Assembly (NCBI GenBank): GCA_029339195.1 | Contig: JAPTJF010000248.1 | Location: forward strand, 1 to 64,000 | Source of the DNA: Micractinium sp. NFX-FRZ | Lineage: Eukaryota > Chlorophyta > Trebouxiophyceae > Chlorellales > Chlorellaceae | DNA: 64,000 nt | Direction of reading: 5' to 3' | Shown: piece after piece, positions 1,783-59,300 of the stretch | How the letters are laid out: the number at the start of each line of letters is the position of its first letter | Position numbering within the stretch: the first letter of the stretch is position 1 | Position numbers and translations under genes: made by a program | Notes under the pieces: generated by a model | What the model was told of the DNA's origin: nothing | The model's input: the letters and a program-made list of their open reading frames with translations, nothing else | The model's database searches: none

Positions 1783-4700
1783 ATGCCACGGGCACAGCGG
1801 CTCTCCACACTGCTCCCGTGGGCCGCTTTGGTGTGCCTGTGCCTCTCGGGACCGGCAACGCAAGCAACAGCAGCGCTAGACAAGACGCAGCCTATGAATG
1901 TGAGTCGCCGCGAGCTCTCTGAGCTGCATACAGTACAGTAACTGGAGTGAGAAGCGGAAAGTACTAGAAGCATACTGTAGCGGCCGCCGACAGACATCTC
2001 CCCTGGGCCTCAGCTGCTCGGCCGCCGCCGCCAGCGCCGGGCGGTCCAGAAGCTGACCACGTGCCGCCCCACTCCTCCCTCCCCGCACCCAGGATGGCAT
2101 GTTCCTCATCTTTGTGGATGAGGGACACATGCTCACAGACAGTGGTGCACCCGCAAACCACAGTGAGGAGGGGCGGGTTTTGGGTGAAAGGTTGGGGACC
2201 AAGCGGTGGCGAAGGGGCGCAGCACGTGCTGTGCACCACGTGCCACCCCGCCGGACGCACCCTGCACATTCTTCTTCTTCATTCTGCTTGCCCTGAAGTG
2301 CCCGAATCCACCCTTATCCATTGTGCCTTCCTGCCCCTGCAGCCCAGCCCGACCTCTTCATCTCCATGCCCCACGTCATGCTGGCGGGGCAGGCGCTCCA
2401 GGGGTCGCCCGCCGGCCCGGTGGAGGAGCGCGAGTGTGCGGCGGCCTGCCGGGCGCGCGCAGCAGATGGGTGCAACACATACCGTTACTGGTGGGTGCAC
2501 CCCGGCTGGCGCACGGCGCGGGTGCAAAAGCAGCAGTTGCGTCGCGCTCAAGTGGGCGCGCATTTCATGTGCCCATGCCACCCAATGCCGCCAATGTTGC
2601 GTCAACATGCCGCCCCATCCCTGCCGCTCGCTCACGCGCGTGTGTGCCGGCCCCTCTGCTGCAGCCCGCTGCAGGAGGGCTGCTCCGCCAGCCTGTTGAA
2701 TATATCGGCGACCAGCGGCGCTGCCATGCTGGCGCACAGGCACTGTGTGCTGATGAGCCAGCCCGGCGCGCTGCCACAGCAGGGGCATCCCCCAGAGGCG
2801 CTTGATAAGGGCCCCGCCATTGCCATGACCTCCGGTGCGCGACATGGGTCGCACCTGCACTTGCCCCTGCCGTCTGCCGGCGCCGCTCGTCGGGCGCTGC
2901 TGCAAGTGAATGGTGCTGCCTGCAAGCGCTGCTGCCCCCTTCCCTTCTGGAGCTGCCGCAGCCCTGTGCCGGTGCCGCAAGCGCGTGCCCGGCCACCTCC
3001 TTGCTTTTGCCCGCGTGCGCTGGGCGAAGCGGCGGCTGAGCGGCAGCAGTGGACGCGGTGGGGCAGCACCCCGGTCAAGCATCGGGTGGGGCAGCGTCAG
3101 CAACGTCGCCGTGCGACCTCCGTCCGCTCCTTGCCCTCATGCCCCGTGCCCTCCCCTCCCGCCCGCTGCAGGCCAGCTGGTTCCCGACATGCGGCCGCCC
3201 GACCTGGCAGGCTACCAGCTGCACATGTGCCTGGGGTGGTACAACATGTGAGTGCGGGAGACAGTCAAAAGGGGCCTGTGTGGGTGTGTGGAATTGGCAT
3301 GTGTGTTTGCACGGGCGTGACTGTGTGGGCTGGGGTGTGAGGGCAGGTGGATTATTCACGGTGGGTGTTGTGCATGGTGGCGAGGTCGGCAGCATGTGGG
3401 CAGCGGCATGCACTCTGATGCCAGCTGAACATGTGCCTGGGGCGGCGCACCATGTGAGGGCAGCGGGGCGGCCGGCTTGACAGAGCATGCGTAGCCTGCT
3501 GCCGCTTCCACGCCATGCTGTCACATCGCGTGCGATGCGCTGGAGCACAAAGAGTGTAGATTCAAGCCTCACACCAACTATTTCGTGCATGGTTTTGCGT
3601 GCGTGCGTGCAGGTACGACTACACGTGTGCTGGGACCCTGAAGGAGCATGTGTGCATGCGGCAGGGGTCGCTGAAGGTGCGGGGGGCCGGCGGGCGGGCG
3701 GGGGCTGGAAGGCGGTGCCGTCGCATCGGGGGGGCAGGTCGGCATGCCGTCTGCCTCCCCTGCAAGGCTCGTTGTGCTGGTCCCTTGCTGCCCTGCGAGA
3801 GATGCTGGGATGAGGGTGACCTCCTGCATTTCCGTGCTCTGCTGCCTGCGCCTGTGCCCCTCTCCATCTGTGCAACCCGCCCCGCCCGAGTTGCAGGAAG
3901 CCGAGGCGCAGTGCAATGCAGATGGCGTGCGGTGCATGGGTGAGCTATGCTGCACAAGAGAGGCGGGCCTGGGGGGGGGGGGGGGGGGGGGGGCTGATGT
4001 GATTTACTGGCTGGAGGAAGCGGGGGTGGTGCCGTGCCGCCGGTGCTGGCGGCTGGGGGAGTCTGGACCGCTGGCAGCGCACAGCGCAACTACATTACCC
4101 AGGCTGATCCTAACCAGGACCCCTCGAAATGACACTGCACTCTCGCCTCTCCTGCACCCTGTCCTGCCCGCCAGGCGTCAAGTGGTTCCCTCTGGGCCGC
4201 GACTTTTTGGGACCCAACATCTACATGCTGAAAGGTGGGTGGGCGGGCGGGCGAGGCTCTGGACTCCCAGGAGAGGGAGCTTTCTGAGTGGGGACCTCCC
4301 TGCTTGCTTGTGTCTCTGGGGCGCTCCCTGGCGCAGGGTGGTGCCAGTTGCAGGCCATTGGCAGGCAGCTTCATATGGCTGCAGCGCCAGTGCGCGCATC
4401 CAGCTGCCGCCTTGCCTTTGGTTGTGTGCTCCTGCGTTATTTGAGGTCAAGTATGTGTAATTTCACTGGTTCAATGGCCATTTCAATGTTCATTCATGTG
4501 CAGGCATCCCAGACAGCCCCACCACTCAGAACCTGCCGGCGGTGCCCATCGATCTCTCGCTGGCCAACTGGTAAGCTGCCAACCCCGCCGCCTGCTGAGC
4601 CCTGCAAGCACAGCACACTGCGTACAGCGCTGTGTTGGGACGCTGCTGCTGCGCGGCCTTGTGAGCCGCGGGGTGCAGCAGCGCTGGCGTGGGGTGCCAC

Positions 4701-56300: not shown

Positions 56301-59300
56301 GGCCTCAAGATGGGGCCGCTGCTGGGCAAGTGAGCGCGGATTGTGTGTTGCATGCTGTACTTTGGGCCCCCTGCTGTTGCAAGCCGTGATGGACTGCTGC
56401 TGGGCAAGTGAGTGAGCGTGTGTGTTGCATGTTGTACTTTCGGCCCCCTGCTGTTGCAAGCCGCGATGGGCTGCTGCTGGGCAAGTGAGCGCGGACTGTG
56501 TGTTGCATGTTGTGTGTTTGAGCCCCCGCCATTGCGAGCCCCCCATTGTACCGCAGGGGCGCGTACGGCAAGGTGTACCGCGGCACCTGGAAGTCGGCCA
56601 GCGTGGCGGTCAAGGTGGGTGGCTGCTCCTCAGCTGATACACTCTGATGTCACCGGTCCTCACCCCGTGGCATGCACTGACGCCTGCAATGCTTTCCAAC
56701 ACGTTGCGACACGGCTGCTCCCCACTGTCCCGTCCCCTGTTCCCCTGTTCCCCTGTCCCCCTGTTCCCCACCCTTTCCTGTCACCCTTCCGTTTCTAGCT
56801 CCGCTGCCCCTCAAGTACGCCCCCGGGCCCCTTATCCCTTGCACCTTCCTCCCCGCCACCCCCTGGGCAGATCATGGAGGCGTGGGTGGACCCCCAGTCT
56901 GCGGAGGTGACGCAGCCCATGCTGGAGGCGCTGCTCAGGTGGGGGCTGGGGGTGGTGGTGGGGGGGCTGGACTTAGTATGGACTTAGCATGGACTTAGTT
57001 GGACTTAGTATGTCTTAGTATGCTGGAGGCGCTGCTCAGGTGGGACCAGCCAGGTGGAGCCCCCACAGCTGCCCCCAGCCCAAGCCGCGGCCCTGCCCTC
57101 GGGTGGGCTGGCCCCACCTCCGAGGAGTCCACCCCTTGCCCTGCACTCGTCACGAACACGGTGTTTTCTGTTCGTGCCCTGCGCGCCTCCTTCCTTTCCC
57201 TGCCCTGCTCTCTCATAGGGCTCCTGGCTCGCGCCCTGTGCCCTCTGGTGGGCGCGTGCAGCCAGACCCTCAGGGCTGGCCCAAACCTGGTGCACACCTC
57301 CCCGGTCTTTTCAGGCGGCTGCCGCCCTCTGCTGGGGCCCTCCTCACTGCCGCTGCCCCCCCCTTGGCTGCCCCCCCCCCCCCCTGCAGCAAGAAGCTGA
57401 CCCACCCCCACGTCGTGCAGACCTTTGACTATGCGTTTCAGATTTTCGAGGTGGGTCACTCGCCGCGCATGCAGCGCTGGCGCCGAGGTAGGACTGAGGG
57501 GGTGAGCCGAGCGGAGCACCCCGGGGACGTGTCAGTTTGGCGGGTACTGTAGGGAATTGCAGGGGTGTAGAGTTTAGAGGCGCCGAATGCGGGACTGGAG
57601 ATGCACGCTAGGGACACACGCTGCGGCGGCCCCGCTGCAGCTGCCTCCCCGCCGCTGCAGGGGGGGGCAGTAGCCCCGCTCACCCCACATGCCTGCTCTT
57701 TCCAACCACCCCGCCCTGCCTGCCCGCCCTGCCTGCCCCTTTGTGCAGCCCGACCCGCTCTCGGACTCGGACCCCGGCAGCCCCCGCCTGCTGCCTCCCT
57801 CCCACGACCTGCCCGCGCCGACAGGCGCCCACAACCGCCAGCAGCAAGTGTGGATTGTGCAGCAGGTGAGGCATTGTGTACTGTGCACCAGGTGTGGCAT
57901 TGTGGATTCTGCAATAGGTGAGGCAGGGGGTGGGCACTACTGTAAGCGTCCCGTGCACTGCCCTGCAGGCGCGTCGCTGCATGAGGGGCCGGGAGCCGGG
58001 GCCCGCTTGCATGGGCATACGCTTGAGGGCTGCATGGGTGCACGGAGAGTCTCCCTTTGGGCCAACCCTTTCAGAGGCTTCCTGGGCCTGCCCCCAAACC
58101 CTCTGGTGCACCCTCTCCTGTCCTGCCTCCCCCCCACTCCCCCCCCCCCCAGTACTGCAACCACGGCACGCTGGGCGACGCCGTGGACCGCGGCTGGCTG
58201 CGCACGCAGCGCACCCTGCAGGGCCCGCCCTGCATGCCCGCCATCCTGCCCACCGCCCAGGCAAGGGGTGCACAGGGCCCAGGCGCAGCGTTGTGGGGGG
58301 GAGAGGGGGCACAGCTGGCGACGTGCAGGGCACCTGCCTGCCAGGATCTAAGGCCAGGTCCTGGAGCCCGGCCGGTCTTGCTTGGCTGGCAGGAGGAACC
58401 AGTCAAGCCACCAATCTTCACCACCTCAACCCCGGGCTTGCCACCACCCTCCAGTTCACACCTGGCTCCTTACTGCCAGCCGGTGTTTGTGTGCTGTGTG
58501 TGTGTGTGTGTGTGTGCAGGAGATTGCGTCGGCCCTGCAGTATCTTCACTCCCAGGACGTCATCCATGGTGGGTGGTACTGCGTGGGTGCTTGGATGGTA
58601 GTGCCGAGTGTAGAGTGGAGTGTAAGACGTGGCGGGTTGAGCCGGGGGCTTTAGGGACCCCTCTACTGCACCCCCCTCACAGCAAGGCCTGTTGGCGTGG
58701 TGCAGTGGCAGCGCAAGGGCATGATCGTGCACGGTGCAGGCCTGGGGCACGGCTGCCTCAAGTATGAGAAGCCCAGCGGGCACGGCTGCTGCTGGCTGCT
58801 GCCGGCTGCCCTGCTGTCTAGCTTACCTGGCTGCTCTCAGGCCCGCCTGCTGCTGGGCTTCCCAGTTTTCCCAATGGCTCTGCATCTTGCAATCAATCAT
58901 GTACACTTGAACTGAACGGAGCGAGCAGGACCGCCGTGCCTGCTCCGCTCGGCCCGCCAGCGTGGCAGGGCCCCGCTCAGCGACGTGCAGGCGGCCTTCC
59001 GCCCTGCCAGCCCTCCCTCCCTGGCCCCGAGACCACCCCCCTGGCCTGCACCTCACCTGCCATTGGCCGAGGCAGTAAAGCCTCTGCACAGTGACAGGCA
59101 CATCAACCCGGCTGTACCTGCCCTGCAGGCGACCTGGCGCCCGGCAACGTCCTGCTGGTGGGGGCGCAGCCGCAGCGGCGCTCCGACCCGCGCAGTTTCC
59201 AGGCCAAGGCAGGCGGGGGGGAGGGCTGAAGGGCTGGGGCTGGAGGGCTGCGAGGGGTGAACTTTGATGGGGGTGAAGGGCTGGGGGGAGGGCTGGGCAG

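Follow-up and report, generated by a model that had tools for sequence, protein, structure and literature searches.

Decaying copies of exon ends in introns of Micractinium sp. NFX-FRZ and their probable origin in short tandem duplications

Some introns of the green alga Micractinium sp. NFX-FRZ carry degraded copies of the ends of their own flanking exons, splice sites included, which are referred to here as relics. They were studied in five genes of a window of 64,000 nucleotides (assembly GCA_029339195.1, contig JAPTJF010000248.1, positions 1 to 64,000) and in 200 kb of sequence taken from other parts of this assembly. The presence of the relics was confirmed; the pattern extends beyond the window and is not limited to kinase genes. 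The best explanation, which we consider very probable, is that short tandem duplications occur anywhere in genes and that those crossing an exon-intron junction leave a decaying spare copy in the intron. The duplication process favours a step of about 110 bp, a preference evident chiefly outside the window, and the junctions need not be preferred targets. These two points are new relative to an earlier note on the window, which had proposed local tandem duplication across exon-intron junctions.

Exon-end copies exceed shuffled and real-sequence controls

The assembly comprises 66,065,352 bases in 838 contigs, the window (GC content about 66%) belonging to contig 248, and the sequence examined amounts to 264 kb of 66 Mb. 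Five gene models with 103 introns in all were built by hand in the window. The outside sample consisted of 20 stretches, chosen non-randomly, in which the genes are predictions. Their 280 introns were called by a home-made gene finder that was trained and tuned on the window genes and whose accuracy is known from these training genes only (90 of the 103 window introns exact, 98 introns predicted in the known spans).

Local alignments were made between each intron and the abutting ends (at most 150 bases) of both flanking exons, and the null distribution was obtained from dinucleotide shuffles (500 per intron in the window, 300 outside). The reverse-complemented intron and the non-adjacent exons of the same gene served as real-sequence controls. 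In the window, 13/103 introns matched their own exons better than every shuffle, in comparison to 1/103 for the reverse complement and 4/309 for non-adjacent exons. The respective numbers were 18/103, 4/103 and 15/309 at p ≤ 0.01, and 26/103, 7/103 and 32/309 at p ≤ 0.05. Outside the window, no shuffle scored as high as the real sequence in 34/280 introns (reverse complement, 1/280; non-adjacent, 8/560), and p ≤ 0.05 was reached in 62/280, 27/280 and 42/560 cases, respectively. The comparison of introns with flanking exons against shuffles, proposed in the earlier note, therefore yielded an excess in both samples. Since the controls exceeded the nominal 5%, weak matches are not trustworthy and the strict cut alone is convincing.

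The strict catalogue (score ≥ 17 and z ≥ 4.5) held 56 relics, 31 of donors and 25 of acceptors, with a mean identity of 0.84. They were located in 46 of the 383 introns from both samples, so that only about one intron in eight carries a relic. The window contributed 16 relics (one in RLK1, two in RLK2, four in the GAF kinase and nine in MAP3K), and no relic was found at this cut in the fifth kinase gene. The window relics were 20-66 bp long and 70-100% identical to their parents, whose orientation they shared; their distance to the parent junction was 94-431 bp. The description of more than a dozen such segments, close to their parents and distributed over four named genes, was thereby borne out. 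Alignments in intron 13 of RLK1 and RLK2 and in intron 3 of the fifth kinase gene were weak GC-rich matches, two of the three at a distance of over 70 bp to the junction, and were not counted. Six relics in five introns were observed in a gene on contig 300 (positions 1-20000; stretches L020 and L021) that matched the chaperonin family Cpn60_TCP1 (E = 1.9e-143).

A preferred spacing near 110 bp

The offset, i.e., the distance from the real junction to the relic junction, was determined for the 50 relics that reached within 10 bp of the junction. Thirty-one offsets fell at 85-135 bp, three were below 85 bp and 16 were above 135 bp; outside the window, 25/34 fell at 85-135 bp. A scan at fixed offsets (at least 22 of 36 matches, RLK2 left out) detected 15 donors at 100-120 bp versus 1.0 expected, and 19 acceptors at 80-140 bp versus approximately 0.3 expected. 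Nearly all introns were long enough to reach these enriched offsets. Relic ladders were also present, with offset pairs of 111 and 214, 97 and 214, and 162 and 267 bp. One intron of contig 120 had further candidate members of a ladder, with offsets of 118, 334 and 453 bp; these ended 19-51 bp before the junction and were not relied on.

Local direct repeats were additionally collected irrespective of annotation. A total of 255 repeats scored at least 18, whereas a single block-shuffled copy yielded 5; the spacing of the real repeats had a second mode at 80-120 bp. Among 221 tandem arrays, five units exceeded 60 bp (77, 104, 105, 116 and 125 bp), and no array had a unit of 126-600 bp. Exon length was hardly correlated with the step (r = 0.18, n = 41), and the step therefore does not merely reflect the copying of an exon. 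One intron of stretch L017 (contig 182, positions 55001-65000) contained interleaved repeats with spacings of 83-84 and 125-126 bp.

Relic decay follows a non-coding pattern

Exact alignment to the exon end was observed for 31/56 relics; as the probe itself ends there, this indicates that the match extends as far as the exon end and says nothing of whether it continues beyond. The splice dinucleotide was intact within 3 bp in 34/50 relics, versus 34% at random intron positions. Eight of these 34 sites equalled or outscored the parent site, and 10, about a third, would preserve the reading frame. Mismatches were nearly flat across codon positions 1, 2 and 3 (15.3, 20.1 and 17.1%), and frame-breaking gaps were common among the 74 small gaps, which were mostly of 1-2 bp. 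The relics thus decay as non-coding DNA, and neither the codon-position mismatches nor the gaps support a coding constraint. Three relics searched against the whole assembly (very common words skipped) matched only themselves and, in two cases, the parent exon. For the MAP3K exon 7 relic, the parent exon was the sole other match found. Across all loci, 185 of the 428 differences between parent and relic were from A/T to G/C and 132 were the reverse; this excess suggests GC-biased change in introns.

The intron side of the duplicated unit was still detectable in 15/50 relics in a gapped test (p ≤ 0.06), which was added because the introns are indel-rich and gapless intron-side identity was consequently close to that of a swapped control. 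A neutral simulation fitted best at 20% substitution with an indel-to-substitution ratio of 0.28, taken from the comparison of the RLK1 and RLK2 introns. It gave an exon-side identity of 0.84, with 34% of the intron sides detectable.

Proposed mechanism and intron growth

According to the proposed mechanism, stretches often 85-135 bp long would duplicate in tandem at a substantial rate, irrespective of exon borders. A duplication wholly inside an intron would lengthen the intron and have no other consequence, and one across a donor or acceptor would place a spare exon end and splice site in the intron. The gene model would stay open only with the copy adjoining the intact exon, and splicing presumably takes place at the real junction, not at the relic. 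The spare copy would then decay as ordinary intron DNA while selection holds the parent exon nearly still, and repeated events would give rise to ladders. Because parent and relic would diverge at the rate of one lineage and two intronic copies at double that rate, exon ends should dominate the visible duplications. When units of approximately 110 bp were placed at random in the gene structures, aged by differing amounts of decay and then searched for again, uniform placement predicted a ratio of junction to intron-internal matches of 1.45. The observed ratio was 1.54 (37:24), and with this agreement there is no need to postulate a preference for junctions. The idea in the earlier note of local tandem duplication across the junction with a decaying spare copy is thus supported by the adjacency, the non-coding decay, the simulation and the placement ratio.

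Relic-bearing introns were longer by about one unit. They averaged 381 bp, versus 265 bp for introns without relics, and the difference of 116 bp was attained in none of 5,000 permutations. Introns with relics at 60-140 bp only had a mean length of 349 bp, or 238 bp after subtraction of the units, versus 266 bp for introns without relics. The introns with reverse-complement control matches were also longer (308 bp, n = 27, versus 270 bp overall), so part of the excess may reflect opportunity; those with non-adjacent control matches were not (266 bp). Tentatively, and with the odds rather against it, a size-restricted process in which each event duplicates about 110 bp, possibly for the most part in transcribed DNA, could ratchet intron length in increments of this size. 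Exon definition of exons of about 105 bp could then purge short-step junction copies, in which the spare site still gives an acceptable exon, and tolerate those of about 110 bp.

The RLK1 and RLK2 paralogues

RLK1 and RLK2 form an inverted segmental duplication (window positions 1775-9737 and 41162-48993). The identity between them, introns included, is 82-94% depending on the matching segment, and the pair is suited to studying intron change. The intron 5 relic is identical in both genes, and intron 5 as a whole is 94% conserved. Being common to the two genes by descent, this relic was counted as one event. The largest tandem-like insertion between the paralogues is in intron 20 of RLK2, where two units stand in place of a single one in RLK1. 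The two units are 86% identical mutually and 85-88% identical to the RLK1 unit. Since this divergence resembles that of the paralogues, the event is either about as old as the RLK1/RLK2 pair or reflects the loss of a unit in RLK1. In RLK1, the single unit is bounded by copies of the 12-bp repeat TGCGCTGCCTGG at 9007-9018 and 9108-9119, 101 bp apart. A further exon modelled between RLK exons 9 and 10 introduced stop codons and was abandoned. A block in RLK intron 9 (4741-4790, and in RLK2 near 46033-46080) looks conserved and exon-like and breaks the frame.

Contrary evidence and alternative explanations

Several observations weigh against the tandem duplication model. Synonymous change in the parents should raise the third-position mismatch, and no such rise was found. 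Within the window, third positions even mismatched least (10.7%), for which GC-biased change is the sole, and tentative, explanation we can offer. Intron-side homology was undetected in 35/50 relics, so a full tandem unit is there a supposition. The fit of the simulation leans on the RLK-derived indel rate, since halving the ratio to 0.14 raised the simulated detectability to 58%, compared to the 15/50 observed. The 20/20 match at 57020-57039, whose intron-side flanks have no recognisable homology, suits a simple tandem copy poorly. Offsets were broader in the window (5/14 at 85-135 bp, RLK2 left out), which leaves the outside sample as the chief basis of the step, and the 80-120 bp mode was weak in unannotated DNA (12/76 pairs at 80-130 bp). 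Spacings below 85 bp were rarer at junctions (12/78) than inside introns (43/75), in a scan that may count one duplication repeatedly. The smaller room for exon sequence in short units explains part of this shortage, and the lower edge may be due to selection against nearby competing sites or partly to detection. Finally, only 3 of the 19 insertions of at least 12 bp between RLK1 and RLK2 resembled tandem copies at p ≤ 0.02, with a fourth at 0.025.

Two of these observations, the exact junction copy of 20-25 bp without homologous flanks at 57020-57039 and the 35 relics lacking detectable intron-side homology, would also be accounted for by templated insertion of short exon pieces in break repair (polymerase-theta type) rather than by tandem duplication. 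We nevertheless regard this origin as improbable. The 15/50 relics with intron-side homology are what is expected of decayed tandem units at the RLK-derived indel rate, and full-unit arrays of 77-125 bp are present, at least one of which crosses junctions. The intact splice dinucleotides, the eight sites equalling or exceeding their parents and the identity of the RLK intron 5 relic in both paralogues could point to functional decoy or alternative exons under selection. However, two bases each kept at about 0.82 would leave 67% of the dinucleotides intact, near the observed proportion, and the RLK intron is conserved throughout, not in the relic alone. Given also that the frame would be kept in only about a third of the intact cases, that mismatches are nearly flat by codon position and that frame-breaking gaps are common, selection for such a function seems very unlikely.

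Introners, or another mobile element carrying splice sites, would likewise copy splice sites along with the flanking sequence. Such an origin is hardly credible, because the relics match the neighbouring exon and the three searched assembly-wide matched themselves or the parent exon only. Furthermore, no near-identical introns at many loci were found when the 383 introns were compared mutually; this gave 27 matches between introns of different genes, and the 15 that were detailed spanned 20-83 bp, not whole introns. Chance similarity due to GC-rich composition is consistent with some weak, GC-rich alignments and with the control rates above 5%, but it is refuted as a general account by the large excess over both controls at the strict cut. 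The same applies to assembly error, against which speak the difference of about 16%, with gaps, between relics and parents and the occurrence of one relic at the separate RLK1 and RLK2 loci.

Gene models and features of the window

In all five hand-built models (Table 1) the reading frame is uninterrupted between the start and stop codons, and the introns are of the GT-AG or GC-AG type. Introns starting with GC are located at 8907 (+), 42164 (-), 58261 (+), 59209 (+) and 37928 (-), with one position common to RLK1 and RLK2. The names RLK, MAP3K and CDPK (a working tag) are labels of convenience and do not denote established orthology. A Pfam scan of four kinases (RLK2 not among them) identified a kinase domain in each. 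The gene that the earlier note had called a GAF-PAS kinase encodes the GAF and kinase domains, and no PAS domain was detected in it by Pfam at E ≤ 1e-3. Its protein has named relatives in Micractinium, Chlorella, Volvox and Gonium, the best of these named matches being that of Micractinium tetrahymenae (61% identity over 77%). An intron of this gene contains 27 uninterrupted GT units (52756-52809).

Table 1. Gene models, parent exon ends, relics and tandem arrays in the window (offsets in bp)
Feature	Position	Strand	Parent	Offset	Remarks
RLK1 gene model	1783-9683	+			hand-built
Fifth kinase gene model	17789-22271	-			hand-built
MAP3K gene model	26734-40069	-			hand-built
RLK2 gene model	41218-48984	-			hand-built; same 21 introns as RLK1
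GAF kinase gene model	50317-60186	+			hand-built
RLK1 exon 5 end (parent)	3215-3247	+			local alignment
RLK1 exon 5 end relic, then gtgagg	3421-3453	+		206	strict catalogue; common to RLK2
RLK2 copy of exon 5 relic	47326-47358	-		209	strict catalogue
RLK1 single-unit counterpart	9007-9119	+			12-bp direct repeat TGCGCTGCCTGG bounds segment duplicated in RLK2
RLK2 exon 21 start (parent of acceptor relic)	41856-41887	-			local alignment
RLK2 intron 20 relic with acceptor	41950-41981	-			units of 96 and 94 bp
Fifth kinase exon end, weaker relic	21136-21194	-	21288-21341		z 4.8 in shuffle test; outside strict catalogue
MAP3K exon 15 start with acceptor, weaker relic	32448-32469	-	32291-32312	157	z 3.4, under strict cut
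MAP3K exon 12 end, weaker relic	33552-33588	-		431	strict catalogue
MAP3K exon 12 end relic with donor	33869-33925	-	33983-34041	114	70% identity
MAP3K exon 7 end relic	36546-36611	-	36872-36935	326	89% over 64 aligned bp
MAP3K exon 6 end relic with donor	37217-37278	-	37400-37462	183	
MAP3K exon 6 start relic with acceptor	37643-37686	-	37470-37513	173	
MAP3K exon 6 start, more diverged relic	37798-37862	-		354	78% identity
MAP3K exon 4 end relic with donor	38308-38337	-	38424-38453	116	97% identity
MAP3K exon 3 start relic	39014-39044	-	38854-38882	162	strict catalogue
MAP3K exon 3 start, second relic	39121-39148	-		267	strict catalogue
GAF kinase exon 7 end (parent)	53094-53130	+			local alignment
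GAF kinase exon 7 end, first relic	53205-53241	+		111	strict catalogue; donor GT now AT
GAF kinase exon 7 end, second relic	53301-53335	+		214	strict catalogue; about twice the step
GAF kinase exon 13 end relic	55891-55935	+	55766-55810	125	strict catalogue
Tandem array across GAF kinase exon 14 donor	56318-56513	+			77-bp unit, 2.5 copies, 88% matches
GAF kinase exon 16 end relic plus gtggg	57020-57039	+	56919-56938	101	20/20 identical
Tandem array across GAF kinase exon 18 donor	57849-57925	+			26-bp unit; short-step exception

Discussion

The best analogue for the molecular cause would be duplication between short direct repeats in lagging-strand replication, an analogy drawn from one case, and fill-in of staggered breaks is an alternative. 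Rad27/FEN1 is a flap nuclease. In excerpts of the published work, duplications in rad27-null yeast take the form ABA to ABABA, with a unique part of 1-91 bp and a repeat of 1-21 bp, and an earlier report gave duplications of 5-108 bp with repeats of 3-12 bp (PMC5677150). The RLK1/RLK2 case has the same form, with its 12-bp repeat and 101-bp spacing. A flanking repeat in the unduplicated relative was found in this one case, RLK1, where loss of a unit is possible. Unlike the mutator strain, the alga presents a standing pattern with a mode of about 110 bp and one resolved case, and the enzymes are suggested by analogy only. CST and polymerase alpha-primase are described as producing small tandem duplications at induced staggered breaks in cultured cells, and the introduction of that paper connects insertions that arose naturally in humans and plants with staggered breaks (PMC8355091). 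By this description, the small tandem duplications formed as a product would be what the two systems have in common.

The relics also resemble other known phenomena, as far as excerpts of the respective papers describe them. Intron gain by tandem genomic duplication creates a new intron within an exon via a duplicated proto-splice site (PMC2891723; PMC4974935). It likewise involves a short local duplication holding splice signals, one copy of which is intronic, but in the alga existing junctions are copied and old introns lengthen, and no intron gain is claimed. Tandem exon duplication (PMC9013439) also yields a local duplicate of exon sequence; there, whole exons are kept as alternatives, in contrast to the decayed exon ends observed here. 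Introners (PMC9860276) similarly alter introns by added sequence with splice sites, whereas no shared family was found here. Exon-end copies in introns were not described among the literature matches listed, as judged by titles and abstract openings, a scope that subscription papers largely fall outside.

The relics provide a record of intron growth in the sequence itself, in which the exons act as a fixed reference and both reveal and measure duplications that are otherwise erased in introns. To our knowledge, relics of exon ends have not been described at such density. Any genome with reliable gene models could yield the rate of the duplications, their step size and their relative age, and models of intron length evolution would thereby become testable. 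A narrow step would point to a particular fault of replication or repair. The relics also constitute a standing reservoir of potential decoy splice sites, and may act as putative seeds of alternative splice sites or exons.

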